Shown piece after piece: positions 15,728-31,288 of a stretch of DNA of 64,000 bases. Numbering within the stretch: the stretch's first letter is position 1; each line of letters starts with the position of its first letter. The DNA lies in NCBI RefSeq assembly GCF_037977385.1, contig NZ_CP150277.1:1775001-1839000 (forward strand). Reading direction: 5' to 3'. Made by a program: the position numbers and the translations under genes. The notes under the pieces were generated by a model. That model was not told the origin of the DNA and made no database searches. It saw only the letters and a program-made list of their open reading frames with translations. The stretch is from Terribacillus sp. FSL K6-0262. GTDB lineage: Bacteria > Bacillota > Bacilli > Bacillales > Amphibacillaceae.

Positions 15728-16671
15728 TGTTTCGTATCATTGGGAGAAGATTGCTGGAGGTTGTACTGTTCGTCTTATTCGTCACCTTCTTCAGTTTCCT
15801 TTTCCTTCGCCTTGCACCAGGTGATCCAGCGCTTACGATCCTGAATGTGGATGAACTGAATGTAAGCCAAGAGCAGGTGGAGGCGCTGAGGGAGGATATG
15901 GGCTTCAACGATCCATTACTTGTCCAATATGGAAAGTGGCTGCTGGATTTCCTTCGTCTGGATTTCGGCAATTCCTATATCACCAGTCAGCCGGTATCGG
16001 AGATGCTGCTGACTGGTCTTCCGGCTACATTGGAGCTGACCATCGGTTCCTTGATCGTCATGCTGCTGGTCGCGATTCCATTGGGATCCCTTTCCGCTTT
16101 ATACAAGGATAGCTGGATCGACCATGTCAGCCGCTATTTCTCCATCATTGGTGCTGCCGTCCCCAGTTTCTGGCTCGGACTGATCATGATTGATATGTTT
16201 GCTGTCAGATTAAGCTGGTTCCCGACAATGGGACGTGACAGCTTGCTATCCCTTGTGCTGCCGGCAGTGACATTGGGACTTGCTATTGCGGGTGTTTATG
16301 TACGGCTGCTCCGTTCCAGTCTGTTGGACTCCTTGGGACAGGAGTTTGTCCGCGCGGCAAGGGCGCGGGGTATTTCGGAAGGACGCATCTTCTTCTCGCA
16401 TGCTTTCCGACACAGCTTGCCGCCAGTCATCACGGTATTCGGTGTCAGCCTGGGCAGCTTGATCGGCGGTGTTGTCGTGGTGGAAGTATTATTTGCTTAC
16501 CCCGGTGTAGGAAAGCTCGTCGTTGATTCTATCCGTCAGCGTGATTATCCGCTGATTCAAGGCTATATCGTCCTGATGGCGGCTATTGTCTTCATCGTGA
16601 ATACATTAGTGGATCTATCTTATCGATATGTAAATCCTGAACTTCGATTAAAAGAAAGGAAGCTCAGCTAG
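15727..16671 (+). CDS. NikB/OppB-type ABC permease
   Basis: 314 residues starting at ATG 15727, which overlaps the stop of the binding protein by one base (TGATG). Six membrane segments; the N-terminal segment carries the typical FFSFLFLRLAPGDPA signature, and the EAA loop reads EFVRAARARGISEGRIFFSHAFRHSLPP. It forms the channel together with the next gene product. Confidence 0.88.
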   Translation: MFRIIGRRLLEVVLFVLFVTFFSFLFLRLAPGDPALTILNVDELNVSQEQVEALREDMGFNDPLLVQYGKWLLDFLRLDFGNSYITSQPVSEMLLTGLPATLELTIGSLIVMLLVAIPLGSLSALYKDSWIDHVSRYFSIIGAAVPSFWLGLIMIDMFAVRLSWFPTMGRDSLLSLVLPAVTLGLAIAGVYVRLLRSSLLDSLGQEFVRAARARGISEGRIFFSHAFRHSLPPVITVFGVSLGSLIGGVVVVEVLFAYPGVGKLVVDSIRQRDYPLIQGYIVLMAAIVFIVNTLVDLSYRYVNPELRLKERKLS

Positions 16672-17514
16672 ATGAGTGTCATGGCTCTTTCCCCTGAAAA
16701 AATAAAGAAAACCAAGGCCTGGCTGATCAGTGCGCTTTTGGTCCTGTCATTGGCAGTGGCGGCATATACGTTCCTTTACTTGAAGCATGATGCCAACATG
16801 ACAGATGTCGGGAACCGGCTGGCATCCCCATCGTGGGAGCATCCCATGGGGACGGATCATTTAGGCCGTGATGTGCTCACGAGGCTCTTACTCGGATTCC
16901 GTTTGACTGTCGGCTACAGTTTGATTGCTTTGGCTGCAGCAGTTATGATCGGTGTTCCTTTCGGCCTGCTTGCAGGAATACGGGGAGGCTGGGTCGATCG
17001 GCTATTCATGCGGATCGCCGATGGTTTCCTTGCTTTCCCCGATACAGTGATTGCCATTGTGCTAAGCGGTCTGCTGGGGCCGGGTATTGGTAACTTGCTG
17101 TTTGCCATCGTTCTTGTAAAATGGGTCAACTATGCCCGGATGGTACGCAGCACAGTGCTGACAGAAGTGCAAAAAGACTATATCACCATTGCCAGGATCA
17201 ATGGTCTGTCCACGTTTACGATCATGCGCAGACATCTTATGCCGCATATCATCGGGAATGTCCTCGTCCTGTCCAGTTTGGATTTCGGTAAAATCATTTT
17301 GCTCATTTCTTCGCTTTCATATATCGGTCTTGGTGCACAGCCGCCGACCCCGGAGTGGGGCGCCATGCTGAATGAATCCAGGCCTTACTTCCAGGCGAAC
17401 CCCGAAATGATGGTCTATCCTGGACTGGCCATCGTTGCAGTGGTGTTAGTGGCGAATGTTCTCGGTGACTATTTACGAGATGAATTTGATGTGAAAAAGG
17501 AGGTGCAGCCATGA
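16672..17514 (+). CDS. NikC/OppC-type ABC permease
   Basis: 280 residues, starting directly after the previous stop. It has an N-terminal membrane anchor, the family sequence HPMGTDHLGRDVLTRLLLG (about 58-76) and the EAA loop KDYITIARINGLSTFTIMRRH. It is the second half of the importer channel. Overlaps the first ATPase gene by 4 bases. Confidence 0.88.
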   Translation: MSVMALSPEKIKKTKAWLISALLVLSLAVAAYTFLYLKHDANMTDVGNRLASPSWEHPMGTDHLGRDVLTRLLLGFRLTVGYSLIALAAAVMIGVPFGLLAGIRGGWVDRLFMRIADGFLAFPDTVIAIVLSGLLGPGIGNLLFAIVLVKWVNYARMVRSTVLTEVQKDYITIARINGLSTFTIMRRHLMPHIIGNVLVLSSLDFGKIILLISSLSYIGLGAQPPTPEWGAMLNESRPYFQANPEMMVYPGLAIVAVVLVANVLGDYLRDEFDVKKEVQP

Positions 17515-18296
17515 TTTTATCAATCAAGGATTTAACGGTATCACATGGAGAAAAAACGCTTGTGGATCACGTCAGTCTTACCATCGATAAAGGAGAATGG
17601 TTCGCCCTCGTTGGTCAAAGCGGCAGCGGGAAAACGATGCTGTCACAAGCGATCGGTCAACTGCTTGGACCTAATCTAAGTGCATCCGGAAGCGTCATTT
17701 ATCAAGGGGATAATATTCTTGAACGGACGAAACAAGAAATGAAAGAGTTGAGAGGAAAAGCAATCAGTTATATTTTCCAGGACTATCACGGCTCCTTCAC
17801 ACCTTTCCTGACGATCCTGCAGCATATGGAAGAGTATTTGCAAACACATGGAGTGAAAGAAAAGCAAAAGCGTAATGAAATGACGAAAGAGGCGCTGGAA
17901 TCTGTCGGTCTGGATGCCAGCTTTGGTAAGCGATACCCATTCCAGCTGAGCGGCGGCCAGCTGCAGCGTGCTTCTATCGCACTTGCACTTCTTTTGGAGC
18001 CGGACATCCTGATTGCTGATGAAGCAACGACTGCGCTTGATAGCGTATCTGCGCATAGGATCCTTTCCTTGCTGCAAGAGCTGCAGCAAAAAACAGGCTG
18101 TGCGATTCTTTTCATTACACATGATTGGCGCCATGTTGTTCGCTATTCCCATAAAATCGCTGTCATGAAGGATGGTAAGATCATGGAAGTCGGAACAAAA
18201 CAAAAGCTCATCCATCAGCCGGAACATGCATATACGAAGCAGCTGATTCAAGCTGCCCCGACATTGCCCATGCGCGTCAGGGAGATAAGCAAATGA
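17511..18296 (+). CDS. NikD/OppD-type ABC ATPase
   Basis: 261 residues. Walker A GQSGSGKTM, signature LSGGQLQRAS, Walker B ILIADEATTALD and the switch His in FITHDWRHV are all present. It lacks the long C-terminal oligopeptide extension with the 4Fe-4S cysteines of OppD, which suits a nickel/metallophore system better. Ribosome site AAGGAGGTG; overlaps both neighbours by ATGA. Confidence 0.88.
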   Translation: MILSIKDLTVSHGEKTLVDHVSLTIDKGEWFALVGQSGSGKTMLSQAIGQLLGPNLSASGSVIYQGDNILERTKQEMKELRGKAISYIFQDYHGSFTPFLTILQHMEEYLQTHGVKEKQKRNEMTKEALESVGLDASFGKRYPFQLSGGQLQRASIALALLLEPDILIADEATTALDSVSAHRILSLLQELQQKTGCAILFITHDWRHVVRYSHKIAVMKDGKIMEVGTKQKLIHQPEHAYTKQLIQAAPTLPMRVREISK

Positions 18297-19057
18297 GGCG
18301 CGTTGTCGAAATGCATGATCTCAAAAAAAGCTATACTCCCGGTAAGCTGGCTGTCAATGATGTCTCTCTCTCCATTCACGAAGGTGAAAGCTTAGGCTTG
18401 GTAGGGGAAAGCGGATGTGGAAAAAGTACATTGGCGCGCTGCCTGTTGGGAGTAGAGACAATTGATGGCGGATCGATTATATTTAATGGAGACCCCCTTG
18501 CGAATGCCAGCCGGAAAGACTTTCGAAACTATCGCCGCAACGTACAGACCGTCTTCCAAAATCCAACCGCCTCTTTGAATCCGAAGATGAGAATCAAAGA
18601 TTCACTGCTGGATCCATATTTGCAGTTCCAGCATGAACTTCAGCTAGGGCACTTTCATTTCTCCTCCAAGCAAGCATTTGTACAGCAGCTGCTGGAAACG
18701 GTGGAACTGCCAAAAGAGCTGGGGGATCGTTTTCCGCATGAGCTGAGCGGCGGACAAAAACAACGGGTGACCATTGCCCGTGCCATCAGCATCGAGCCCA
18801 AGCTCATCGTCCTGGATGAACCAACGGCAAGCCTGGACGTCCTTTCCCAGGGAGCGATATTGAAGCTTCTTGCTTCTCTCCAGGAAACACTAGGTATGTC
18901 ATACTTGTTTATTTCCCATGACCTTGCTGCTGTTTATCAGCTTTGCCAGCGCATCGCAGTCATGAAAGATGGCGAGCTGCTCGATTTGTTTGATAAAGAA
19001 GATATTTATGATAATCAGCGTCACAATTATACAAAGGAATTGATCGGCATATTTTAA
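18293..19057 (+). CDS. NikE/OppF-type ABC ATPase
   Basis: 254 residues. Walker A GESGCGKST, signature LSGGQKQRVT, Walker B LIVLDEPTASLD, switch His in FISHDLAAV. It is the fifth and last gene of the Zur-controlled importer operon and is followed by a strong terminator. Two separate ATPases, as here, are the rule for family 5 importers. Confidence 0.88.
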   Translation: MRRVVEMHDLKKSYTPGKLAVNDVSLSIHEGESLGLVGESGCGKSTLARCLLGVETIDGGSIIFNGDPLANASRKDFRNYRRNVQTVFQNPTASLNPKMRIKDSLLDPYLQFQHELQLGHFHFSSKQAFVQQLLETVELPKELGDRFPHELSGGQKQRVTIARAISIEPKLIVLDEPTASLDVLSQGAILKLLASLQETLGMSYLFISHDLAAVYQLCQRIAVMKDGELLDLFDKEDIYDNQRHNYTKELIGIF

Positions 19058-19088
19058 GCGGATACTCTCTGGGAGCATCCGCTTTTTT
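19056..19088 (+). terminator. Terminator after the metal ABC operon
   Basis: An 8-bp stem AAGCGGAT/ATCCGCTT (19056-19063 with 19077-19084) is followed by TTTTTT. It sits between convergent transcription units. Confidence 0.88.
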
Positions 19089-20280
19089 ATGCTTCGAATT
19101 GCTTCAGGAGATCACCTAAAGACATCTCCCCGATGTTTCCCTCTGGCCGCTTCCGGACAGCAACTGTTTTATCCTGCATCTCCTTATCCCCGACAATAAG
19201 CAGATAAGGCACTTTCTGCTGGGAGCCTTCCCGTATTTTCAGCCCGATTTTCTCCGAACGATCGTCAACGGACACGCGATAGCCTGCTTTTTGAAGATAC
19301 TCGCCAACGGCCTTGGCATATTCTGCGTGCGCATCGCTGATCGAGAGTATGCTTGCCTGAACCGGTGCCAGCCAGAAGGGGAAGTCGCCTGCATAATGCT
19401 CGATGAGAATGGCCATGAAGCGCTCGATCGATCCATAGATGGCACGATGGATCATGATTGGCTGTTTGCGGCTGTTTTGCTGATCGATATAGCTGCAGCC
19501 GAATTTCTCCGGCATTTGGAAATCCAGCTGGACAGTGCCGCATTGCCAGCTTCTTCCGAGACTGTCGAGAATGTGGAAATCGATTTTCGGACCGTAAAAT
19601 GCACCGTCACCGGCATTCACCTTATAAGCGATCCCTTGTCTTTCAAGGACATTCTCCAAGGCAGCCTCCGCTTGATCCCAAATTGCGGGGGAACCCATGA
19701 AATCTTCTGGACGAGTGGATAGCTCTACCTCATAAGAGAAACCGAACAGGCTGTAAAAATCATCGATCAAATGAAGGACTTTTTCCACTTCTTGTTCGAT
19801 TTGATCCTCACGGACGAATAGATGCGCGTCATCCTGTGTAAATGATCGGACGCGCAGAAGCCCGTTCAGTGAACCGGATAGTTCGTGACGGTGCACCAAG
19901 CCCAATTCGGCATAGCGCAGGGGGAGATCCCGATAACTGCGGAGCTTGCTGTTATAAATCAGCACTGCACCAGGACAGCTCATCGGTTTGATGGCGTAGC
20001 GCTGATCATCGACTTCGGAGAAATACATATTTTCGTGATAATGATCCCAGTGACCGGACCGTTCCCAGAGCTGCTGCTTCATCATGATCGGCGTCTTGAT
20101 TTCATCGTAGCCAGCTTGGGCATGCTTTTCTTTCCATAATTCCTCCAGTTTATTGCGCAGTGCCATTCCCTTTGGCAAGAAGAAGGGCATGCCTGGTGCT
20201 TCCTCCATGCTCAGGAATAGCTCGAGCTGCTGTCCTAGTTTACGATGGTTCCGTTTTTCTGCTTCAGCTTGTTTGTTCAT
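19087..20280 (-). CDS. thrS: Threonyl-tRNA synthetase lacking the N-terminal TGS and editing domains
   Basis: 397 residues from ATG 20278-20280 (AAAGGAGGAAATTATC upstream). Full bacterial ThrRS is about 640; this one starts at the class II catalytic core (EKRNHRKLGQQLELF) and lacks the TGS domain and the N2 domain that clears Ser-tRNAThr. Class II motifs are intact: motif 2 around LVHRHELSGSL and motif 3 in IYGSIERFMAIL. The three zinc ligands are kept: Cys in KPMSCPGAV, His in TQDDAHLF and His in IMIHRAIYG. The anticodon domain fills the last 100 residues. It is probably an inducible second ThrRS, as shown by the tandem T-box leader; a full-length enzyme should exist elsewhere. Confidence 0.88.
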   Translation of the reverse strand: MNKQAEAEKRNHRKLGQQLELFLSMEEAPGMPFFLPKGMALRNKLEELWKEKHAQAGYDEIKTPIMMKQQLWERSGHWDHYHENMYFSEVDDQRYAIKPMSCPGAVLIYNSKLRSYRDLPLRYAELGLVHRHELSGSLNGLLRVRSFTQDDAHLFVREDQIEQEVEKVLHLIDDFYSLFGFSYEVELSTRPEDFMGSPAIWDQAEAALENVLERQGIAYKVNAGDGAFYGPKIDFHILDSLGRSWQCGTVQLDFQMPEKFGCSYIDQQNSRKQPIMIHRAIYGSIERFMAILIEHYAGDFPFWLAPVQASILSISDAHAEYAKAVGEYLQKAGYRVSVDDRSEKIGLKIREGSQQKVPYLLIVGDKEMQDKTVAVRKRPEGNIGEMSLGDLLKQFEA

Positions 20281-20301
20281 GATAATTTCCTCCTTTGAAA
20301 T

Positions 20302-20540
20302 AAAAAAGACCACAATCCTCCCGTGATCGGGACGATTGTGGTCGTGGTTCCACCCAGATTTCCGCCAATGCATTGGCGCTTGTATGAGATAACGGTTCCT
20401 CCGATAGCGGATACTGTGACTTCCCCGCCATAGCTTGAAGGTGGTAATCCAAATCGTTCTCCTGCAGGGCTCTCAGCCGTTGACCCTGCTTTCTGTTTAG
20501 GAGAGGGATGACTTGCATCATGTCCTTCGCATTGCTTTTC
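20302..20540 (-). promoter_or_regulatory. T-box riboswitch 1 (proximal) of the ThrRS gene
   Basis: Read on the minus strand, the conserved T-box GGGTGGAACCACG lies at 20343-20355. The terminator stem GACCACAATC/GATTGTGGTC (20308-20317 with 20334-20343) is followed by six T. A specifier candidate ACC (Thr; 20443-20445) sits in ATTACCACCTT, a sequence shared with the second leader. Uncharged tRNAThr binding should favour the antiterminator. The 5' boundary is approximate. Confidence 0.88.
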
Positions 20541-20557
20541 CGATATGAAATTGTAAA

Positions 20558-20812
20558 TAAAAAAGACCGCAGTCATCTCCCTGAAGGGACGATTGCGGTC
20601 GTGGTTCCACCCTAATTCCACCAGCAAACAGCTGATGCTCTTAAAAAAGCGATAACGGTCTTCCCGATTACGGATACTTGAGTTCCCCGTAATAGCTCCA
20701 AGGCGGTAATGCATGTGCTTATCTGCGAAGGTTCCAGCATTTCCTTCGCTCTCTGGAAGAAAGAGGCGCGTGCATGTTGTCCTTATCAACGCTTCTGTTG
20801 TGTTGTATGCTC
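20558..20812 (-). promoter_or_regulatory. T-box riboswitch 2 (distal) of the ThrRS gene
   Basis: A second complete T-box: AGGGTGGAACCACG at 20600-20613, terminator stem GACCGCAGTC/GATTGCGGTC (20565-20574 with 20591-20600) plus T-run, and specifier candidate ACC at 20705-20707 in ATTACCGCCTT. The two leaders stand in series, so both must be antiterminated for full readthrough. Confidence 0.88.
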
Positions 20813-20841
20813 ATTATACAGATACTGGATATAGACGTCAA
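20813..20841 (-). promoter_or_regulatory. Sigma-A promoter of the ThrRS leader
   Basis: On the minus strand TTGACG (20836-20841), 17 bases, TATAAT (20813-20818), just before the distal T-box. Confidence 0.85.
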
Positions 20842-21389
20842 ATGGAAATGAGGGATTTTTATGCAGGATTGGATCGGAACGGAAAAAACTATATAATGAT
20901 TTGATTACACAGCGCATCAAAAGATAGGCAGATCGGATATATCAGCTATTATCAATTGATTTAGTTTTAGTGTAGTAAAGCGGATACATCTTATAAGGTA
21001 TTACATAACCAAAGGGCAACATATAAATATTGTTGCCCTTCATTAATATGCACTTCTTTTAACCTTGTTTTCTTAAATGACCTCCATTTCTGTTTGTATT
21101 GATTTAGTATTAGAACCAGTCTGCTCATCGCTTTAAAGAAATCTTCGTATTTTCTCACTATGATTAGAGATATTCTCTCTTTACTCCTAGTTCTTCTTAT
21201 TTAAGTGGAGCAATAGCCGTTTATGCAGTATTTTATTTATATTATATTATATGGATCCATTGGGAATAAGATATTTTGTGGTTTTGACCTGGATGGATAC
21301 TTCTGCTAATAATCTTCTTATTATTATCTCCTGTTATTTCTTCATTATCTCTATCATTCCCTGACAATTTGGAATCCTCGGCTATATTG
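20842..21389. other. Non-coding AT-rich stretch at the island edge, possible decayed membrane gene
   Basis: No intact gene is visible. A 10-bp hairpin AAGGGCAACA/TGTTGCCCTT (21012-21021 with 21031-21040) has only short T-runs on either strand. From an ATG at 21160 a small two-segment membrane protein can be followed to about 21364 only by allowing a frameshift near 21199 and two stop codons. It may be a broken small membrane or immunity protein gene. This is a low-certainty reading. Confidence 0.3.
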
Positions 21390-22886
21390 TCATGCAGTCA
21401 GTTTGCCTTTTCTGATAGCATCTGCTTTATACATAGTGTATAACTCTATGGATACTTTAAAAGGAACATCCAACATTCTGGTAGTCTTTGCAGGATTGGA
21501 GCGTGATACTACAGCAAAAGAAGATAGATTGAATATCCTTTGCATTAAGGTCTGTGAAAATCTTAATTCCTCCAATCTAGATCTGGAGGTGATAATAACA
21601 GTGCTCGACAATCTGCATTTCTTTAACTGAATACTATCTCCTTCAAAAGAATAGCCACTAAATAACCCACTTCGTATTTGACTAATCAGGATATAGGATA
21701 CTAATACAAAAGCTACGTACCAAAAAGAAGGCAAGTAGAAGTATACTATTGCTATTGCTGCCAACCATAAGTAACTTGTTCGTATCAGCTTTGGGATTAT
21801 AGACTTTTTAGGAACTGTAGTCATAACTTCATGTAGACGAAATTCGGGTAACATTTCTTCAATAAGGGATCTTGCTTTCTTCTCGTTAATAAAGGGAAAC
21901 AGAACATTGGAGGTCTGGACTTCTTGATTATCACTGTCATTAGTGCTAATTATTCGTACTTTAACTAGACCGGTAAGTTTATTTAGTAATGAATATTTGA
22001 TACTTACAGCTTGTATTTTGTGTTTTGGAATTGAAAAGTCTGTTTTATTTACTCTTCCCTTGCTGATAAAGATTCTATTTTGATCAGTAGCTACGGAAAA
22101 GTCACCATACTTAAGGTAAGTCTTAAGTACACCATACCCAGTGGATATGATAAGCAATGATAATATTCCCAAAGACATGAGCCACCAGCTACTTGTAAAG
22201 AAACTTACTACTTGTTCCACATTCAGTTGGACGGAAAATAACCTCTCTACATTTCCATAAAATGAATAAAGTAACGTAAAGAACAAAACAAGCTTTAAAG
22301 ATGTAACTGATCCAATAATAATCTCCTTATTAGAGATTTGATAGATAGTTTTCCTTAAAGGATGCTTAAGAGTACTCATTTCTTGTTCTTCCGCATCTGG
22401 ATTGTCTTTCAGTATAGAACCGTACTTAATTAAATTATGTTTAATCTCTTTTGAACTTTCATGAGTTAACATGTCTAATTTTACTGAGCTTTTATTATCA
22501 TTTGCTCCTACGTCTAATAAAAGTATGGTTAATCCTAATAATCGATGGAAAAAAGGTGTATATTCATTTATACCTTGTATTCGTTGGAATGGAATGTGCC
22601 GGTCTATCTTTATAAAGCGACCACTCTTTATATGCAGCCCTTCATTATCAAAGAAGTATCCAAAATGCTTCCATTCTAGGACAATTGAGATAGCTTTATA
22701 AATACTATAAGCTGCAATAATCCATTTGACATTATCAAAAGGGAAAGGCGAAAACCTAGTTGTAGAGATAACCGATAAAAATATCGAGAAGAAGATTATC
22801 TCTCTCAGCGACCGGAGAGCTTTTAAACCCATCCATAATGGAGGGAGTCTTTTATAGACTGTTTCTGGATTGCTTATACTACCCAT
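21390..22886 (-). CDS. YdbT-like membrane protein with PH-like domains
   Basis: 498 residues from ATG 22884-22886 (GAGG 8 bases upstream), overlapping the end of the YdbS-like gene by 8 bases. The pattern is that of YdbT: pairs of membrane helices alternate with bacterial PH-like (bPH_2) domains, three in total, at about 70-140, 240-330 and 395-480. YdbS/YdbT-like pairs occur in leaderless bacteriocin clusters such as lacticin Q, where PH-domain proteins take part in export and self-protection. Base composition is much more AT-rich than the flanking chromosome. A role in bacteriocin export is inferred from context. Confidence 0.8.
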   Translation of the reverse strand: MGSISNPETVYKRLPPLWMGLKALRSLREIIFFSIFLSVISTTRFSPFPFDNVKWIIAAYSIYKAISIVLEWKHFGYFFDNEGLHIKSGRFIKIDRHIPFQRIQGINEYTPFFHRLLGLTILLLDVGANDNKSSVKLDMLTHESSKEIKHNLIKYGSILKDNPDAEEQEMSTLKHPLRKTIYQISNKEIIIGSVTSLKLVLFFTLLYSFYGNVERLFSVQLNVEQVVSFFTSSWWLMSLGILSLLIISTGYGVLKTYLKYGDFSVATDQNRIFISKGRVNKTDFSIPKHKIQAVSIKYSLLNKLTGLVKVRIISTNDSDNQEVQTSNVLFPFINEKKARSLIEEMLPEFRLHEVMTTVPKKSIIPKLIRTSYLWLAAIAIVYFYLPSFWYVAFVLVSYILISQIRSGLFSGYSFEGDSIQLKKCRLSSTVIITSRSRLEELRFSQTLMQRIFNLSSFAVVSRSNPAKTTRMLDVPFKVSIELYTMYKADAIRKGKLTA

Positions 22887-23406
22887 CGATATGCCTCGCT
22901 TCCCCATTGGAATTGGTTATATTCATTCCGGACAAGTCGGATATCAGTTGGCGAATGTGCTGGGCTTCTTGTTCAGGTAGCGCTGGGATTTCGTGTACAT
23001 AAGCTATAGTACCAATTTTTAGAGTGGATAGATTATATCGTTTCAGCAGAGGGTGCTGATACGTGTTTACATAGTAGACCTTATTCATAGGGATGATTTT
23101 ATAAGACTTCTTCAGGAAACGACCATATTTGAGTTGAATGCTGTTCTCGTTAACTTCATATCTCCAAGTCCTTTGCTTGAATTTTGGTATATAAAAGAAC
23201 TCAATTATGAAGGAAAGTACTAAAAGGATAGTACCTAAAAGGAAAACAGTATCCCACCAATTAGGCCAATTATAAGTAGTCTTTAGAAGGTATAGTACTC
23301 CTAATATACAAAATACGACTGAATAGACGATAATATCGACTAATCTCCAATACTTGATTGCATACGGAGAAATTTTCTTGGAAGGTTCTTTAAGTGTTAA
23401 ATGCAT
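22879..23406 (-). CDS. YdbS-like membrane protein with a PH-like domain
   Basis: 175 residues. Two membrane helices (about 25-45 and 52-70) precede one bPH_2 domain (about 75-160), the YdbS layout. ATG at 23404-23406 with AAGGGAG upstream. An extended -10 (TGCTATAAT on the minus strand, TATAAT at 23440-23445) lies 34 bases before the start. It is co-transcribed with the YdbT-like gene and divergent from the bacteriocin-like gene, 255 bases away. Confidence 0.8.
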   Translation of the reverse strand: MHLTLKEPSKKISPYAIKYWRLVDIIVYSVVFCILGVLYLLKTTYNWPNWWDTVFLLGTILLVLSFIIEFFYIPKFKQRTWRYEVNENSIQLKYGRFLKKSYKIIPMNKVYYVNTYQHPLLKRYNLSTLKIGTIAYVHEIPALPEQEAQHIRQLISDLSGMNITNSNGEARHIDG

Positions 23407-23584
23407 AGAAATCTCCCTTATAAATGTTTATACAGTGAAATTATAGCACCATATTTCTCCTAATAATGATAAAGAAAATATGAAGTTAAACAACCCACTT
23501 TTTACATTTAGTTAATAATATTCCAAAAAGAGGGAAAAGGGACTATTATGAAAGTACGAATTTAGATTATTTTGGAAAATGTTA

Positions 23585-23630
23585 TTGTATTAAAGATTTT
23601 GCTGTTTTATATTGATTGTGCAAGCTTGCA
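23585..23630 (+). promoter_or_regulatory. Promoter and palindromic operator candidate of the bacteriocin-like gene
   Basis: TTGTAT (23585-23590), 17 bases, TATATT (23608-23613). A 12-bp perfect palindrome TGCAAGCTTGCA (23619-23630) overlaps the predicted transcription start and could be an operator. Confidence 0.6.
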
Positions 23631-23661
23631 AAATATTTGAAAAAAAGGAGAATGAAAAATT

Positions 23662-23808
23662 ATGGGAGCAGCATGGGCGCTAATTTCAAGACTATCAGGG
23701 GCAGCATACAACTGGGCAGCAAAAAATATCGGCACAGTTTGGAACTGGATCAAAAACGGTGCTACTTTCGAGTGGATCAGCGATAAGATTGATTCCATCA
23801 TTAACTAA
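23662..23808 (+). CDS. Leaderless bacteriocin of the aureocin A53/lacticin Q type (candidate)
   Basis: A 48-residue frame. It starts at ATG 23662, 11 bases after AAGGAG, and has its own promoter and a strong terminator. The product has no leader or processing site. It begins MGAAWALISRL and carries five Trp (5, 18, 27, 29, 38). Residues 17-48 follow the aureocin A53/lacticin Q pattern: NWAAKN, then VWNWIKNGATFEWI, then DKIDSIIN, compared with WANKGKILDWLNAGQAIDWV and KIKQIL in lacticin Q. Charge is weaker than in those peptides: one Arg and three Lys against one Glu and two Asp, net about +1. It should form a compact bundle of short helices acting on target membranes. The PH-domain pair and ABC exporter around it are the usual partners. 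Identity is from memory of the family; no search was run. Confidence 0.8.
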   Translation: MGAAWALISRLSGAAYNWAAKNIGTVWNWIKNGATFEWISDKIDSIIN

Positions 23809-23821
23809 TACTTATTAAAAA

Positions 23822-23855
23822 AAGGGATAGAGTCGCAACCTCTATCCCTTTTCTA
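23822..23855 (+). terminator. Strong terminator after the bacteriocin-like gene
   Basis: An 11-bp perfect stem AAGGGATAGAG/CTCTATCCCTT (23822-23832 with 23840-23850) with a 7-base loop, followed by TTCTAT after the closing TT. It isolates the small gene as its own transcript. Confidence 0.9.
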
Positions 23856-24048
23856 TCTAATAAACAGTGGGCGCTGTTTATTAGCTTCCATACATATTCT
23901 TATTTAGGCCCCCACGACCAGAATAAGATTCGTCTCATACAGCTTACGCTTCAGAGAAGATATTGTATAGAAGAATGAAAACATGGGTGCACATATTATA
24001 CTATAACTGTATTTCCATGTATATTCTTTTAAACAGGGAATATGACGT

Positions 24049-24330
24049 TCAAAGGTCTTTTGTTTTCATAATATCCATTTCCTTATGACGTCGTTTTTGA
24101 AGGGATTTTCTTCCTCTGACCCACTCTTCTATCAATAGGATTAATCCAATGATCAGTAGTACAACGAACATAGTGACACTTTCAAGTCTGTTTGTAATAA
24201 ACATCCAAGACATTGCAGCAATAAATATTACAGGTATGAAAAAACCGAATATGAAGCCATTTCTAGTAGCCATAAAATATTGGATTGCTGACAAAACAAA
24301 GATTATGAGGAATACGGATAACTCAGGCAT
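24049..24330 (-). CDS. Small membrane protein of the island
   Basis: 93 residues, with about three hydrophobic segments (about 5-20, 25-43, 51-68) and a strongly basic C-terminal tail (RGRKSLQKRRHKE). It starts at ATG 24328-24330, directly after the stop of the DUF2089-type regulator (TAA then ATG), so the two are translationally coupled. Possible roles are an immunity protein or a membrane partner that holds the regulator. No family recognised. Confidence 0.65.
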   Translation of the reverse strand: MPELSVFLIIFVLSAIQYFMATRNGFIFGFFIPVIFIAAMSWMFITNRLESVTMFVVLLIIGLILLIEEWVRGRKSLQKRRHKEMDIMKTKDL

Positions 24331-24630
24331 TTAAATCCCTTCCTTTTCGCTATTGTATTTTTGGATGATTAGTCGAGCATCTTCAAGTGTTATACGTTCT
24401 TCTATTGCTAATTTCTTTATAAAGCTAACCAACTCTTCAGATTCACTTTCTTCCACTAATTCAATTTTTTGTATCAGTCGATTCAATCTTAGCCGCACTG
24501 TTGGATAAGATACTTCATACGCTTTGGCTAAGTCCTTTAATGAACCAGAATTAAGGATGAACTTACGTATAAATTCAAGGTCTTCAGAATCCAACGATAA
24601 GATCCACGAAGGAACGTCCTTCTTGTTCAT
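24331..24630 (-). CDS. DUF2089-type small DNA-binding regulator
   Basis: 99 residues. PSWILSLDSEDLEFIRKFIL followed by a helix-turn-helix (SLKDLAKAYEVSYPTVRLRLNRLIQKI, about 32-58) is the DUF2089 pattern; the C-terminal part is acidic and helical. The ribosome site is AAGGGGGGAAAGAG. It is divergent from the ABC genes at 24828 and is the only regulator in the island, so it probably controls the ABC genes or the bacteriocin-like gene. The target is inferred. Confidence 0.75.
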   Translation of the reverse strand: MNKKDVPSWILSLDSEDLEFIRKFILNSGSLKDLAKAYEVSYPTVRLRLNRLIQKIELVEESESEELVSFIKKLAIEERITLEDARLIIQKYNSEKEGI

Positions 24631-24827
24631 CTCTTTCCCCCCTTGGTTATAATAATAACACGATTTTAATAAAATTAAACATATTTTTATTATTTTGTTT
24701 AAAGTAATTAAGGTTTATCTTAACTTTATTCAAAAAACTCTGGATGTCATGTGAAGTATTTGATACCATATCCTTGAAAGTTCCCTTGGTGTTCCCATAA
24801 AAAAGTGTTTGAAGGAGGAAACTAATA

Positions 24828-25517
24828 ATGTTAGCCGTTTGTTTCAGAGAATTTAAAAGTTTGTTCAAAAGCATACGTTCTTTAATCATAATAGGTGTTA
24901 TCTTCGGTGTAACACTTGGCGCAGCCAAACTTGTCAGTTCATTTCAACGTCAACTTCAAGAATTGGGATTAGGTGATAGCGCATATGCAACAGGTCTATT
25001 GATCTTGATTCTCATAGCAAGCCCCCTCTTTGTATCCACTCTCACACACAGTACGATAAATGAAGAATTTAAATCCAGGACCATCAGGTTCATTGCGACA
25101 AAAACCTCAAGAGAAAACATTGTGATTGGTAAGTTTCTTGGGAATTTATTTTTTTGGATCGTTTGCTTATTCGTTGCCTTATTGTTAATTATCCCCTTCT
25201 CCAAGGCCTTTCACGTCCCGGAACTTATGCAATCCATCGTTTTTGTATCTTATTTTGTAGGATTGTCCTTATTGTTATCGACTCTTATTCCAAAACCCGG
25301 AGTGACTGGCTTTCTAGGAATGGCCATTGCGGTTGTCGTACCAATATTAGGTCTTTGGAGTATAGCATCTGAAAATATATTCCTTAAGATATATAGCTAC
25401 ATTACACCATACTATTTCTTCAGTCAGGATAATGACTTATATATCTATATAGTATTGATCTTCCCTATTATCTTTTTAGCTATAAGCCTATTCACAATTA
25501 GAAAGAGGGATTTATAA
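24828..25517 (+). CDS. ABC-2 type permease of the island
   Basis: 229 residues with six hydrophobic segments and the ABC-2 features of a short exporter permease (ESRTIRFIATKTSRENIVIG-like coupling region at about 80-100, here with FKSRTIRF). The start ATG has GAAGGAGGAAAC upstream. It overlaps the ATPase gene by one base (TAATG). With the ATPase it forms a heteromeric exporter of the kind that protects leaderless bacteriocin producers. Confidence 0.82.
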   Translation: MLAVCFREFKSLFKSIRSLIIIGVIFGVTLGAAKLVSSFQRQLQELGLGDSAYATGLLILILIASPLFVSTLTHSTINEEFKSRTIRFIATKTSRENIVIGKFLGNLFFWIVCLFVALLLIIPFSKAFHVPELMQSIVFVSYFVGLSLLLSTLIPKPGVTGFLGMAIAVVVPILGLWSIASENIFLKIYSYITPYYFFSQDNDLYIYIVLIFPIIFLAISLFTIRKRDL

Positions 25518-26467
25518 TGTACGCAATAGAGACAAATAATCTCACAAAAAAGTATGGTGAAAAAACAGTCGTTAACCAAGTTAATCTAAAAGTCAAAAAG
25601 GGATCGGTATTTGGTTTTTTAGGTAAAAACGGTGCCGGTAAGTCTACATTGATTAACATGTTAACTGGTTTAGCAATCCCTACTTCAGGAACTTTCAAAT
25701 TAAATTTGAATGATTCAGGTTCGAAAAAGAAAGTGCAGGCTAAGGTGGGAGTAATGCCGGATTATTCATCTTTCTACGATGATTTATCCGCATTAGAACA
25801 TCTAAGGTATTTCAGCAAGATCCTGGGAGTGAAAATGAAGAAAGAGGAATATATTAGACTGCTTGAAATGGTTGGTTTAGAAAGCGACACCAAGCTAAAG
25901 GTCAAAAAGTTTTCTTTTGGTATGAAGAAAAAGCTGGGGATTGCACAGACCTTATTAAATAATCCCGATATCATCTTCTTGGATGAACCAACATCCGGAG
26001 TTGATGCTAATTCTGTTTTGACTATACATTCTCTTATAAAAGATATATCAAGTGATGGTACTACGGTGTTCCTAACATCACATAACTTAGACGAGGTCGA
26101 GAAATTATGTGATGAGATATCTATAATGGACAAAGGTGCTATAAAGCTACAAGGGAGTATCGATTCCTTAAAAAAGGAATTCCAAAAAAACCTAACTGTT
26201 ACCGTTAAGCACGGCCATATACCTGCGCAGCATAAAGATAACTTAAAGCATAAACTAGATTCCCTTGCATCAAACGTAGAGTGGGAGGAAGAATACGTAA
26301 GGTTTGTAGTAGCGGAAGAGAAAAAGATTTCTTCCATAAATCGTTTATTTACTGGATTGGATGTAGACGTATATCGAATTCAGGTATATGAACCGTCATT
26401 AGAAGAGATATTCCTGAATACGGGAAAAGAAGAAACTGTTCCTTTAAGATCTCATCATGCTGTTTAA
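25517..26467 (+). CDS. ABC-2 type exporter ATPase of the island
   Basis: 316 residues. Walker A GKNGAGKST (about 37-45), signature FSFGMKKKLG in place of LSGGQ, Walker B IIFLDEPTSGVD, switch His in LTSHNLDEVEKL. The C-terminal 95 residues end in the typical YEPSLEEIFL. Codon use and AT content match the rest of the island. Probable immunity or export ATPase for the bacteriocin-like peptide. Confidence 0.85.
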   Translation: MYAIETNNLTKKYGEKTVVNQVNLKVKKGSVFGFLGKNGAGKSTLINMLTGLAIPTSGTFKLNLNDSGSKKKVQAKVGVMPDYSSFYDDLSALEHLRYFSKILGVKMKKEEYIRLLEMVGLESDTKLKVKKFSFGMKKKLGIAQTLLNNPDIIFLDEPTSGVDANSVLTIHSLIKDISSDGTTVFLTSHNLDEVEKLCDEISIMDKGAIKLQGSIDSLKKEFQKNLTVTVKHGHIPAQHKDNLKHKLDSLASNVEWEEEYVRFVVAEEKKISSINRLFTGLDVDVYRIQVYEPSLEEIFLNTGKEETVPLRSHHAV

Positions 26468-26711
26468 TCCAAAAATTTATCATCGCTGTAAACAACAGCT
26501 ATGTTAACCAGGGTTAAAAGAACAATAGGCCTGCCCGCTGGTTGCTCCCTACATTGGCACTTAGAGTTGTTTAAGTGCTTGGAGCCGTTCGGCGGTCGTT
26601 TGTTTGAAGGATATTATCTGGAGTGAGCAGCAGGGCTTTGCATCACTATCTGCCACGGTAAGACGAAAACGAAGAAATTCCTGCAATGGGCTGCTCTATC
26701 ATTGTAATGCA
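26468..26711. other. Intergenic junction at the right end of the island
   Basis: No gene or clear remnant found. Base composition returns to that of the flanking chromosome at about 26530, which places the island boundary here. No flanking direct repeat or tRNA gene is visible. Confidence 0.4.
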
Positions 26712-26744
26712 AATAGAACCGCAAATTCGCGGTTCTATTTTTTT
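26712..26744 (+). terminator. Terminator between island and GntR gene
   Basis: An 11-bp perfect stem AATAGAACCGC/GCGGTTCTATT (26712-26722 with 26729-26739) followed by TTTTT. It may close a transcript from the ABC genes and also the minus-strand GntR gene. Confidence 0.8.
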
Positions 26745-27363
26745 AATTTTGACTATCGATGAGATGCAGGCAGAAGTCGAGATCTTTTTCCAAATGCTGT
26801 TTCATTAATTCCTCTGCACGTTCTGGCTGCCGGTCCTTTATCGCTTGGAAAATATCTTCATGCTCCTCAATCAGAAAAGGGCGGTTGTAAAATACCACGG
26901 TCTTACGGAATAAGTAAATGATGCTTTGCATGCGGTTGATTGTATCGATCAGTCTGTCGTTGCCGCTGGTTTGGACAATGATCTGATGGAATCTTTCGTT
27001 GGCATCCATGATTTCATCATAGGATCCGGTTTTTCCTGTTTCCACACAATCCGCCAATGTCTCCAATTGATCTGCGGAAGAATAGGTCGCCGCACAGCGT
27101 GCGCTGTATCCTTCCAAAAGCATGCGAACCTGAAAAATATTCCGCAGATCTTTATCAGTCGGCTTTACTACTTTTTTATTGATGATCAGCCCTTCATATT
27201 CCAATCTTTTGATCGCATCACGGATTGGCGTTCGGCTGAAACCGAGATCAGCTGCCAGCTTTTCTTCCGTGATTTTTTCACCGCTTTGCAGCTGACCGTT
27301 CAATATCTTGTCCCGTACCATTTCATAAGACTGCTGCACGGCTTTTTTCTTATCCATATTCAT
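26743..27363 (-). CDS. FadR-subfamily GntR transcriptional regulator
   Basis: 206 residues. An N-terminal winged helix (about 8-75, with SRTPIRDAIKRLEYEGLI as recognition region) and a C-terminal FCD ligand domain (about 80-200) with the metal-type residues in ANERFHQIIVQTSGN and EEHEDIFQAI. ATG 27361-27363 or the second ATG at 27355-27357 could be used. It is divergent from the acid-sugar operon, and two TGTATACA palindromes lie in the shared control region. It most likely represses the operon until an acid sugar binds. Confidence 0.85.
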   Translation of the reverse strand: MNMDKKKAVQQSYEMVRDKILNGQLQSGEKITEEKLAADLGFSRTPIRDAIKRLEYEGLIINKKVVKPTDKDLRNIFQVRMLLEGYSARCAATYSSADQLETLADCVETGKTGSYDEIMDANERFHQIIVQTSGNDRLIDTINRMQSIIYLFRKTVVFYNRPFLIEEHEDIFQAIKDRQPERAEELMKQHLEKDLDFCLHLIDSQN

Positions 27364-27473
27364 CTATCTCCACCTTAAGTTTTCCCATTCGGATAAAATC
27401 TGCAGGGTTTACCCTCATCATAACAAATCCTGATAAAAAGACAAATGCACCAGAATGCAAAACGAAAATAACA

Positions 27474-27519
27474 AAATTGTATACAATTTCTTGATTAAAT
27501 GTATACAAAATAATATAAT
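27474..27519 (+). promoter_or_regulatory. Promoter and GntR operators of the acid-sugar operon
   Basis: Promoter TTGATT (27491-27496), 17 bases, TATAAT (27514-27519). A perfect 16-bp palindrome AAATTGTATACAATTT (27474-27489) lies just upstream of the -35, and a second TGTATACA (27500-27507) sits in the spacer. The arrangement suggests repression by the adjacent GntR protein. Confidence 0.8.
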
Positions 27520-27535
27520 TATGTTTAAATTGAGA

Positions 27536-27550
27536 ATGCAAACGTATTCA
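27536..27550 (+). promoter_or_regulatory. cre (CcpA) site of the acid-sugar operon
   Basis: ATGCAAACGTATTCA matches the cre consensus WTGNAANCGNWNNCW at every position. It lies downstream of the -10, where CcpA would block transcription when a preferred sugar is present. Confidence 0.85.
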
Positions 27551-27579
27551 ATACTTTTTTTGGAGGCGAACAGATCATC

Positions 27580-28473
27580 ATGGAATCAAACATAGGCTTT
27601 ATTGGACTTGGGATTATGGGGAAACCGATGGCATTGAATTTAATAAAAGCAGGTCAAAATGTAACCGCTTTTGATATTAATAAGGCTGCTGTCGAACAGC
27701 TGGCAGAAGCAGGAGCAAAACCAGCTCTGTCCATCCAGGAAGCAGTAGAAAACAATGATGTCGTGATTACGATGCTGCCTAGCGCAAAGCATGTAAAGGA
27801 TGTCGTTTTGGGAGAAAACGGTGTAGCTTCATTTGCCAAAGCGGGCTCGATTGTGATCGATATGAGCTCACTATCCCCGGTTGACAGCGTGGAAATCGCA
27901 GCTGCATTAAAGGAAAGGGACATACATATGATGGACGCGCCAGTCAGCGGAGGAGAGCCAAAAGCGATAGATGGAACCCTCTCCATCATGGTAGGGGGAA
28001 AAGAGGCGGATTTCACAGCAACCAAGCACATCTTTGACATCATCGGAGCTGAGACCGTCCTGGTAGGAGATAACGGCAGCGGCGCAACCGCAAAGCTTGC
28101 AAATCAAATAATTGTGAACTTGAATATCGCAGCCATGTCCGAGGCGCTTGTACTGGCAGCAAAAGCAAATATCGATATAGAGAAAATGTATCAGGCAATC
28201 AGAGGAGGCCTTGCTGGCAGTGCGGTACTTGATGCGAAGGTACCATTGATTCTCGATCGCAACTTCAAACCAGGCGGCCGGATCGATATCAATCTGAAGG
28301 ACATCACCAATGTCATGGATACTGCGCACAGTATCGGTGTTCCGCTTCCGCTTACAAGTCAGCTGCTGGAGATTTTCCATGCACTGAAAGCAGACGGAAA
28401 AGCAACGGATGACCATGGCGGCATTGTGCAATATTACGAGAAGCTTGCCCATGTAGAAGTAGGGAGGAAGTAA
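27580..28473 (+). CDS. ltnD: L-threonate-type dehydrogenase (3-hydroxyisobutyrate dehydrogenase family)
   Basis: 297 residues. The NAD site GFIGLGIMGKPMA opens the protein, the substrate motif DAPVSGGEPKA is at about 115-125, and the catalytic Lys lies in GSGATAKLANQ (about 170). In characterised four-carbon acid-sugar pathways this enzyme oxidises C2 of L-threonate or D-erythronate to the 2-oxo acid. It is the first gene of the operon, and the DUF1537 kinase starts right after it, which supports that role. Exact substrate unknown. Confidence 0.82.
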   Translation: MESNIGFIGLGIMGKPMALNLIKAGQNVTAFDINKAAVEQLAEAGAKPALSIQEAVENNDVVITMLPSAKHVKDVVLGENGVASFAKAGSIVIDMSSLSPVDSVEIAAALKERDIHMMDAPVSGGEPKAIDGTLSIMVGGKEADFTATKHIFDIIGAETVLVGDNGSGATAKLANQIIVNLNIAAMSEALVLAAKANIDIEKMYQAIRGGLAGSAVLDAKVPLILDRNFKPGGRIDINLKDITNVMDTAHSIGVPLPLTSQLLEIFHALKADGKATDDHGGIVQYYEKLAHVEVGRK

Positions 28474-28474
28474 C

Positions 28475-29911
28475 ATGATGGCCGAGCAAACCGAGCGTCA
28501 CGTCGATGAGCTGAAGCGACTTAAGGAAATGGATGATACAAAGGCGAAGCAGCTGCTGGATGAGGCACTGCAATCATTTAACAAGAAAATCATCGTATTG
28601 GATGATGACCCGACAGGGGTACAGACCATCCATGATATTTCCGTGTACACCGATTGGACGGCAGAAAGTATTCGTGCCGGGTTTAAAGAAGCAAACAGCA
28701 TGTTCTTTATCCTTACGAATTCCAGAGCCTTCACTGCGAAAGAAACAGAGCAAGTGCATCAGGATATCGCTGCTGCCATCGCGCAGGTTGCCAAAGAGGA
28801 AGGTAAAGACTATATCATTATAAGCCGCGGGGATTCCACCCTGAGAGGCCACTATCCGCTGGAAACGGAAGTCCTGAAGCAGACGGTGGAAAAAGTAAGC
28901 GGTGACAAGTTCGATGGAGAAGTCATCTTTCCTTTCTTCAAGGAGGGAGGCCGCTACACGCTTGATGATATCCATTATGTCCAAAATGAGAACAGCTTGA
29001 TTCCGGCTGGTATGACCGAATTCGCCAAAGACCGGACATTCGGCTTCACACATTCCCATCTCGGTAAGTGGGTGGAGGAAAAGACAGAAGGAAGATATCA
29101 GGCGGATAAGGCTACCTATCTATCACTGGATGAAATCCGGGCCATGGATATTGACGCACTTTTGGAGAAGTTATTGCAGGTGGAAGACTTCAATAAAGTC
29201 ATTATAAATGCAGTCGATTACGCAGATGTGCAGATAGCTGTGACTGCCCTGATCCGCGCCATGAATGCGGGCAAGAAATTTATGTTCCGCACAGCAGCAT
29301 CGCTGACAAAAGTAATCGGCGGGGTTTCTGACCGGGCGCTTTTATCAAAGCAGGATCTGATTGAAGAAAATGAGAAAAATGGCGGGCTTATTTTGGTAGG
29401 CTCCCATGTGAAGAAAACCACCCAGCAGCTCGAACAGCTAAGGAAATTGGATGGACTTCACTTCATCGAATTCAATACGCATTTAGTATTGGAGGAAGAG
29501 GCTTTCGGCAAGGAATTCAATCGCGTGCTGAAAGAGGCGGAATCGCTTATCAAACAGGGAAGAACAGTTGCTGTTTATACCCGGAGGGAACGTTTGGATC
29601 TTGGTCCGGATAAAAAAGAGGAAGAATTGCAGCTCTCAGTGAAAATCTCCAAAGCTGTCACTAGTATCGTGACTTCCTTGAGCGTACGTCCTAAATTCAT
29701 TGTTGCCAAAGGCGGCATTACTTCCAGTGATATCGGTGTGAATGGCCTGGCGGTTAAACGGGCAACAGTGGCAGGGCAGATCAAGCCTGGTATTCCGGTA
29801 TGGGTAACTGGAAGGGAAAGCAGATTCCCAGGCATCGCTTATGTGATCTTCCCGGGCAATGTGGGCGAAGTCACTACCTTAAGAGAAGTAATAGAGGAAC
29901 TGGCGTACTAA
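28475..29911 (+). CDS. otnK: DUF1537 four-carbon acid sugar kinase
   Basis: 478 residues. The N-terminal half carries the acid-sugar motif VLDDDPTGVQT (about 37-47) and ISRGDSTLRGHYPLE; the C-terminal half (about 300-470) is the nucleotide-binding part with FIVAKGGITSSDIG. DUF1537 enzymes phosphorylate 3-oxo-tetronates, threonate or erythronate. Ribosome site GGGAGGAAGTAAC; the start is ATG 28475 or 28478. The class II aldolase in this operon raises the chance that a longer acid sugar is the substrate. Confidence 0.85.
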   Translation: MMAEQTERHVDELKRLKEMDDTKAKQLLDEALQSFNKKIIVLDDDPTGVQTIHDISVYTDWTAESIRAGFKEANSMFFILTNSRAFTAKETEQVHQDIAAAIAQVAKEEGKDYIIISRGDSTLRGHYPLETEVLKQTVEKVSGDKFDGEVIFPFFKEGGRYTLDDIHYVQNENSLIPAGMTEFAKDRTFGFTHSHLGKWVEEKTEGRYQADKATYLSLDEIRAMDIDALLEKLLQVEDFNKVIINAVDYADVQIAVTALIRAMNAGKKFMFRTAASLTKVIGGVSDRALLSKQDLIEENEKNGGLILVGSHVKKTTQQLEQLRKLDGLHFIEFNTHLVLEEEAFGKEFNRVLKEAESLIKQGRTVAVYTRRERLDLGPDKKEEELQLSVKISKAVTSIVTSLSVRPKFIVAKGGITSSDIGVNGLAVKRATVAGQIKPGIPVWVTGRESRFPGIAYVIFPGNVGEVTTLREVIEELAY

Positions 29912-29918
29912 TATCAAG

Positions 29919-29950
29919 GGCAGTGCATTTCCGTAATGGGATGCACTGCC
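29919..29950 (+). repeat. Intercistronic inverted repeat
   Basis: A 10-bp perfect stem GGCAGTGCAT/ATGCACTGCC (29919-29928 with 29941-29950) with a 12-base loop and no T-run. It is more likely an mRNA processing or stability element between the kinase and permease genes than a terminator. Confidence 0.6.
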
Positions 29951-29971
29951 TAACAACCAAGGAGGTACATC

Positions 29972-31288
29972 ATGCCAATTGTATACATATGCATCGGAGT
30001 GGCACTTCTGCTGCTGCTTATCACAGTCTTTAGGTTAAACGCTTTCATATCACTTGTGATTGTGGCGCTATTGGTAGGCATCATGGAAGGGATGCATCCT
30101 ATTGAAGCCCTGGAGTCAGTAAAAAATGGGATTGGTTCTACGCTTGGGGACCTAGCCCTTGTATTGGGATTTGGAACCATGCTTGGAAAGCTGATGGCTG
30201 ATTCTGGCGGAGCCCAGCGGATTGCGGATACATTGATTGCGCGTTTTGGACAAAATAAAGTCCAGATTGCGTTAGTCATTACAGCATTCATCGTAGGAAT
30301 TGCTATGTTCTATGAAACCGGATTCATCGTCATCATCCCGCTCGTATTCACAGTGGCGATTGGCGCCAATCTACCGGTTTTATACATTGGAATGCCTGTT
30401 GCAGCGGCATTGATCACGGTGCATGGATTCGTTCCTCCTCATCCCGGACCGACTGCCATTGCTGTTATCTTTGATGCAAACATCGGCATCATGCTCTTGA
30501 TTGGTCTGATCATAGCCATCCCATCTATTTTTATAGGCGGTGTGCTTTATACACGTATGTTTAAAATGGAAAATCTGCAAAGCGATATTCCTAAGAAACT
30601 ATTCAACTCAAAACGGCTGGCAGATGATGAAATGCCAGGATTCGGAATCAGTATCTTCACCGCGCTGATCCCGGTCATTCTAATGTTCATCTATGCATTC
30701 ATGGAGATTTTCTATCCTGATTCCAGTTTATTGGAGTATGTCGGATTCATAGGAGACCCGTCTATTGCATTGTTGATTGCTGTCATCCTGGGAGTGTTCA
30801 CCTTTGGCTTGAATAATGGACGCTCGATGGAAGATGTCATGAACACGATAGCGGAATCGATTGCTTCCATTGCGATGATTCTATTGATCATCGGGGGCGG
30901 CGGTGCGTTTAAGCAAATTTTGATTGATAGTGAAGTAGATAAGTATATTGCAGGCTTCATGGAAGGATCGGGATTTTCACCGATCATCTTGACATGGCTG
31001 ATTGCGGCGGTTCTCCGGGTTTCGCTGGGATCGGCAACTGTTGCCGGGCTCACAGCGGCCGGAATTGCGGCCCCATTGGCAGGTGCCGGTGCAAGCCCTG
31101 AATTAATGGCATTGGCAGCCGGTGCCGGAAGCATCACCTTCTCCCATGTCAACGACGCTGGTTTTTGGATTTACAAAGAGTACTTTAATTTGTCAATCGG
31201 CAAGACCATCAAAACCTGGTCTGTCAGCGTTACAATCATCTCGGTTGTCGGCCTGCTATGCATTTTATTATTGGATTTGTTTATGTAA
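29972..31288 (+). CDS. GntP-family acid sugar permease
   Basis: 438 residues, about twelve hydrophobic segments. The family motifs FYETGFIVIIPLVF (about 112-125) and GFVPPHPGPTA (about 150-160) are present, as is SHVNDAGFWIYKEYF near 390. It is a proton-linked uptake carrier for sugar acids such as gluconate, and here presumably for the substrate of the dehydrogenase and kinase. Start ATG with AAGGAGGTACATC upstream. Confidence 0.88.
   Translation: MPIVYICIGVALLLLLITVFRLNAFISLVIVALLVGIMEGMHPIEALESVKNGIGSTLGDLALVLGFGTMLGKLMADSGGAQRIADTLIARFGQNKVQIALVITAFIVGIAMFYETGFIVIIPLVFTVAIGANLPVLYIGMPVAAALITVHGFVPPHPGPTAIAVIFDANIGIMLLIGLIIAIPSIFIGGVLYTRMFKMENLQSDIPKKLFNSKRLADDEMPGFGISIFTALIPVILMFIYAFMEIFYPDSSLLEYVGFIGDPSIALLIAVILGVFTFGLNNGRSMEDVMNTIAESIASIAMILLIIGGGGAFKQILIDSEVDKYIAGFMEGSGFSPIILTWLIAAVLRVSLGSATVAGLTAAGIAAPLAGAGASPELMALAAGAGSITFSHVNDAGFWIYKEYFNLSIGKTIKTWSVSVTIISVVGLLCILLLDLFM

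Follow-up and report, generated by a model that had tools for sequence, protein, structure and literature searches.

Within a 64,000-nucleotide stretch of the chromosome of Terribacillus sp. FSL K6-0262 (contig NZ_CP150277.1, positions 1,775,001 to 1,839,000 of the forward strand), which we call the window, the short gene at 23662–23808 encodes a 48-residue peptide rich in tryptophan (Trp). Judged by its sequence, the peptide is a further member of the known aureocin A53 family of leaderless bacteriocins and not a new kind of bacteriocin. We are highly confident in the reading in which it is likely active without removal of a leader, is likely exported by the neighbouring pair of PH-domain membrane proteins, and is predicted to break the cell membranes of Gram-positive bacteria in its vicinity and thereby kill them. 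The gene lies in a real, complete-looking, and apparently movable leaderless bacteriocin cluster of seven genes.

The peptide and its relatives

The NCBI model NF033881, "aureocin A53 family class IId bacteriocin", matches the peptide over positions 1–48 of 48 with a score of 70.6 bits, far above the cut-off of 27. This is the profile check that the initial annotation had proposed for its suggestion of an aureocin A53-like leaderless bacteriocin, and the suggestion is supported by the profile, the solved relatives, a model predicted with four helices, and the gene cluster. The Pfam model PF11758 reaches 17.4 bits over residues 15–47, below its cut-off of 25, which is a threshold of the library and not a defining trait of aureocin A53-like peptides; five relatives from the same branch (P0002, P0003, P0007, P0008, and P0011) carry no PF11758 label, and one (P0010) is labelled. 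Among solved structures, the sequence is closest to BacSp222, lacticin Q, and epidermicin, and aureocin A53 itself is matched only with an E-value of 0.26. The predicted structure of the peptide contains four helices, and its structural alignment with aureocin A53 gives 26–28% identity.

The reading frame begins with the ATG at 23662 and ends with the stop codon at 23806–23808. It appears to start at the core of the peptide and has its own ribosome-binding site, as in leaderless bacteriocin genes. The length of 48 residues and the five tryptophans, at positions 5, 18, 27, 29, and 38, fit a Trp-rich family of about 43–53 residues. The initial annotation had given the coordinates, length, and number of tryptophans correctly, as it had the net charge of about +1 (three Lys, one Arg, two Asp, one Glu), and the letters of lacticin Q that it quoted agree with the alignment.

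When 5.8 billion proteins were searched with an alignment of six rows as the query (E ≤ 1e-6), 19 relatives were found. The top match is a peptide of T. saccharophilus (P0002, 94% identical), and others originate from B. altitudinis, Salimicrobium, Aeribacillus, B. wiedmannii, further Bacillus, and additional contigs. All 12 of the relatives that bear an NCBI name, P0002 among them, are called "aureocin A53 family class IId bacteriocin", as is the 92% identical peptide WP_077306763.1 of the T. goriensis plasmid pT1. The word "new" in the initial annotation is not supported in the sense of unrecognised, since the NCBI pipeline already gives the family name to near-identical peptides. No paper with a Terribacillus bacteriocin as its topic was found among the PubMed Central papers searched, as judged by titles and the starts of abstracts. 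The family is present in six of the 159 genomes of the host family and eight of the 397 genomes of the order, the source genome being counted in both, and in none of 14 control genomes. Viral contigs yielded 148 stretches fitting the search pattern, none of which was confirmed as a relative.

The B. wiedmannii peptide P0012 is identified as bawcin because its mass (5485.41, compared with 5485.47 as published) and its identity to the V. salexigens peptide (30 of 48 residues, 62.5%, as given for bawcin and NTN-A/B) agree with the published values (PMC10707071). Bawcin has been synthesised, and its minimum inhibitory concentrations are tabulated in the same source. It is also 48 residues long and has the core GATFEWIS, which reads GATFSWIS in the V. 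salexigens peptide (L005); the Terribacillus peptide is identical to bawcin at 25 of 48 residues and to the V. salexigens peptide at 31 of 48. It differs from bawcin, NTN-A/B of Virgibacillus salexigens, and thucin A in having Trp5, fewer Lys and Arg residues in the first helices, and its low net charge, and, unlike in this group, a single structural gene is present in the cluster. With aureocin A53, lacticin Q and Z, epidermicin NI01, and BacSp222 it has in common sequence relatedness (lacticin Z was not among the matches), richness in tryptophan, and the leaderless layout, and a four-helix fold is predicted for it. It differs from them in charge, which is +5 to +9 in the four members of this group tabulated in PMC6131525 (BacSp222 is not tabulated there).

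Gene cluster and expression signals

The features of the cluster, which the initial annotation did not mention, nor the cassette that holds it, are listed in the table below. Each of the seven genes has an open reading frame in the source genome. The PH-domain pair is divergent from the structural gene, and the genes of the 93-residue membrane-type protein and the DUF2089 protein are convergent with it. PH-domain membrane proteins together with an ABC transporter are usual, though not invariable, in aureocin A53-like loci. PF09862 has no match in the genome other than the DUF2089 gene. PADLOC returned no match for the cluster proteins submitted to it (four of the seven).

Features of the bacteriocin cluster in the window (ABC, ATP-binding cassette; HTH, helix-turn-helix)
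Feature	Position	Strand	Evidence
Inserted stretch without counterpart in sister genome G007	20895–26570	.	Flank comparison; right edge approximate
Large bPH_2 protein, 505 residues, three bPH_2 stretches; DdF-like, likely export	21390–22907	-	Domain and place
Small bPH_2 protein, 175 residues, one bPH_2 stretch; DdE-like, likely export	22879–23406	-	Domain and place
Weak promoter candidate TTGTAT-17-TATATT	23585–23613	+	8 of 12 bases, read by eye
Perfect 12-bp palindrome TGCAAGCTTGCA, possible operator	23619–23630	+	Upstream alignments, genome counts
Ribosome-binding site AAGGAG	23645–23650	+	Sequence; kept in three other Terribacillus
Structural gene of aureocin A53-family leaderless bacteriocin, 48 residues	23662–23808	+	NF033881 profile, solved relatives, protein search
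Terminator hairpin, 13 pairs	23820–23852	+	Fold z −6.8
Small hydrophobic membrane-type protein, 93 residues, DUF2089 partner; likely self-immunity	24049–24330	-	Analogy with DdD and BawB (PMC13262744, PMC10707071)
DUF2089 HTH protein, 99 residues; likely regulator	24331–24630	-	PF09862, 69.3 bits
ABC-2 type permease, 229 residues; likely protection or efflux	24828–25517	+	Pfam 23.6 bits, just below cut-off 27.2
ABC ATPase, 316 residues	25517–26467	+	Best NCBI models drrA, GldA, and lantibiotic protection ATPase, all below cut-offs

The same gene order and strands were found in T. halophilus, T. goriensis pT1, a metagenome-assembled genome (MAG) of B. coagulans, and Salimicrobium jeotgali pSJ52. 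V. salexigens and the genomes G023, G097, and G390 contain the same genes, but the PH-domain pair follows the ABC pair, and the structural genes are in tandem (three in V. salexigens, four each in G023 and G097, two in G390). The clusters of G214 and G447 have other arrangements, and the B. altitudinis set, divided between two contigs (L006, L007), was left out of the comparison of gene order.

The component genes recur in published clusters. Enterocin DD14 (ddA-J) has the 89-residue DUF2089 protein DdC, the 90-residue membrane protein DdD, which provides immunity, and the PH-domain proteins DdE and DdF, which function in export; it differs in its two structural peptides of another subgroup and in an ABC system that includes an efflux adaptor and an FtsX-like permease (PMC7332713). 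The 24049–24330 product agrees in size and place with DdD-type immunity proteins, membrane proteins of about 90 residues that leaderless clusters encode alongside a DUF2089 protein (reference sizes from PMC7332713). The bawcin cluster includes the DUF2089 gene BawC and the 94-residue membrane protein BawB, and also an HlyD-like protein and a permease of about 400 residues (PMC10707071), in place of which the Terribacillus cluster has a two-gene ABC transporter. Two PH-domain genes and a DUF2089 gene are described for the thucin A cluster of B. thuringiensis.

The ribosome-binding site proposed in the initial annotation is present, with a spacer of 11 bases to the ATG. The strong terminator that it proposed is also supported: the 66-nucleotide stretch containing the hairpin folds at −18.5 kcal/mol, and none of 200 shuffled sequences folded as well; a simple terminator scan did not pick up the hairpin. 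Of the promoter that it also proposed, only a weak match was found: a scan of the 300 bases upstream on the same strand listed no promoter at its threshold, and the candidate in the table was read by eye. This candidate is conserved in T. goriensis, T. halophilus, and T. aidingensis.

The palindrome begins five bases past the −10 candidate. It is present in five of ten aligned upstream regions, those of four Terribacillus and that of Salimicrobium, the latter with different surroundings. The copy in the window is the sole exact one in the genome, and each of the three cassette-bearing Terribacillus genomes has one copy, located at the promoter of the peptide gene. Three of the seven other Terribacillus genomes have one copy elsewhere, and a reversed control pattern occurs in five of ten genomes; copies with two mismatches are at chance level (six found in all, 4.3 expected). 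Because one copy per genome is close to chance, only the position of the palindrome is telling. It was sought in the intergenic region between the DUF2089 and ABC genes (24631–24827) and not found there. Our guess is that the DUF2089 protein binds the palindrome. The place of the Terribacillus palindrome is taken in the B. coagulans MAG by another, imperfect dyad (L004 2374–2391), as if the operator and regulator had changed together.

Probable mobility of the cassette and alternative explanations

The cluster lies on a cassette, the core of which (about 21187–26471, 5.3 kb) is common to T. goriensis pT1 and T. halophilus, and in both the match to the window stops at the cassette edges. In the sister genome G007, the flanks (16108–20894 and 26699–31144 of the window) are 768 bases apart, and the cluster is absent between them. 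The empty site (L059 4548–5246) contains a nucleotidyltransferase-like frame broken in two, the last residues of which survive in the window at 26573–26626. The GC content of the insert is 34.5%, compared with 48.6% and 45.9% in the flanks. The cassette has likely moved, because it is AT-rich, the sister genome lacks it at the same site, and T. goriensis carries it on a plasmid. No integrase or transposase that would point to a phage or transposon origin was found among the proteins scanned, and no clear target-site repeat was seen by eye at the junctions; neither inspection was a formal test. The cassette was found in three of ten Terribacillus genomes. In T. aidingensis (L003/L038), the flanks share a contig, and the cassette lies on a separate one; the segment corresponding to 22431–23558 is missing, and with it the small PH-domain gene and a portion of its large neighbour. 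The ATPase frame is apparently shifted, and the genes of the bacteriocin and the 93-residue protein are intact. The cassette provides a compact example, on both chromosome and plasmid, of the set of PH-domain pair, DUF2089 protein, and small membrane protein.

Elsewhere in the window, a T-box leader is present at 20582–20798 on the reverse strand (Rfam RF00230, 112 bits), before the reading frame 19087–20373, which appears to encode a threonyl-tRNA synthetase. Cross-matches at 20295–20451 and 20551–20713 suggest a second, tandem copy of the T-box.

Five tryptophans alone do not make a short reading frame special, because at least five are encoded by five of the 143 ATG-started frames of 40–60 residues in the window, the peptide gene included. 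That the gene itself is such a chance frame is nonetheless extraordinarily improbable and already refuted by the family score, the conservation, and the cluster. It is beyond chance because all 48 positions of the model are matched at 70.6 bits and because comparison with the plasmid copy of T. goriensis gave a non-synonymous rate (dN) of 0.036 and a synonymous rate (dS) of 0.42, indicating mostly silent changes. The same substitutions argue against the cluster being a silent passenger, a recently acquired bacteriocin cassette that is not expressed in the source strain, as do the seven intact reading frames and the retention of the promoter-proximal sequence and the palindrome. We consider such a passenger quite unlikely, even though it would agree with the AT-rich insert in a GC-richer chromosome, the patchy spread among Terribacillus, the weak promoter match, and the decayed copy in T. 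aidingensis. It is very unlikely that the peptide is surfactant-like or cytolytic and serves mainly a purpose other than bacterial killing, as phenol-soluble modulins do, with the ABC pair as its exporter. Models of the modulin exporters PmtC and PmtA also pick up the ATPase, at scores far below their cut-offs, but the peptide itself fits the aureocin A53 model from end to end, and the PH-domain pair and DUF2089 gene form a set found with leaderless bacteriocins.

For the leaderless bacteriocin that we favour, we infer the roles in killing, export, and immunity from the characterised systems. The 93-residue protein would protect the producer in the way that DdD does in the enterocin DD14 system, and the ABC pair may remove peptide that returns to the membrane. 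The DUF2089 protein presumably controls expression, perhaps through the palindrome. Given its sequence and low charge, the peptide would owe its action less to electrostatic attraction than to its five tryptophans and its amphipathic helices.

Low-charge branch and solitary gene pairs

A tree of 27 peptides over 48 columns, in which 15 of the 24 inner branches are left open, places the peptide in a nine-row branch with support of 100/100. All nine peptides have an N-terminal tryptophan, and their hosts are Terribacillus, Salimicrobium, Aeribacillus, and the B. coagulans MAG. The distinct branch anticipated by the initial annotation thus exists, with the limit that it is nested in a 16-row clade containing bawcin and the V. 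salexigens and B. altitudinis peptides (support 98/93).

Characterised aureocin-like peptides are tabulated with charges of +4 to +9 (PMC6131525), and a mean charge of +4.63 is given for the predicted peptides of a mining study (PMC11580447). The Terribacillus peptide, at +1, lies below the tabulated range and is not highly cationic; high charge is typical of characterised members and is not assessed by the family profile. Within the branch, the net charge is +1 in six peptides, +2 in two, and +4 in one, and full-length rows outside it range from +1 (G097_1) to +6, with bawcin computed at +5. Low charge is therefore typical of the branch but not confined to it, because G097_1 outside also has +1. 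The description of the peptide as less basic than known members holds against the tabulated ones. The charge comparison excludes the peptides of L064 and L065 and three further rows: G023_2, which runs into masked N, and the Salimicrobium (GTA) and G447_2 (GAT) rows, which lack a start codon. The usual explanation for the activity of the family is the attraction of cationic peptides to membranes, and to this family the branch adds members of low charge.

DUF2089 matches were found in 80 plasmid records, of which seven regions were inspected. Five contain a DUF2089 gene and a small membrane protein gene with no annotated bacteriocin nearby; they belong to plasmids of Priestia (L063), E. durans (L066), L. 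plantarum (L067), L. lactis (L068, region cut at the end of the record), and S. hominis (L069). A six-frame search of these five whole plasmids with the aureocin A53 model, which recovers the peptide gene in the source genome, gave no match in any of them; other bacteriocin classes were not sought. The membrane proteins of the solitary pairs match bacteriocin-linked ones, including the family of the 24049–24330 product, by profile with 99.9% probability. If DdD-like immunity is general, the solitary pairs may, by analogy, be shields, that is, immunity modules of non-producers, and they offer a lead on how non-producers could resist such peptides.

We speculate further, while regarding it as rather unlikely as a whole, that the branch with the N-terminal tryptophan is a charge-poor line that kills by Trp-driven insertion into the membrane with little electrostatic need, suited to salty habitats in which cationic peptides are screened, and that the DUF2089 and small-membrane-protein pair is a portable immunity module which shields non-producers from such peptides when carried alone on their plasmids (lactococcal, lactobacillus, enterococcal, staphylococcal, and Priestia). 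In the remaining two of the seven inspected regions, from Parageobacillus and S. epidermidis, a gene of the aureocin family is present.
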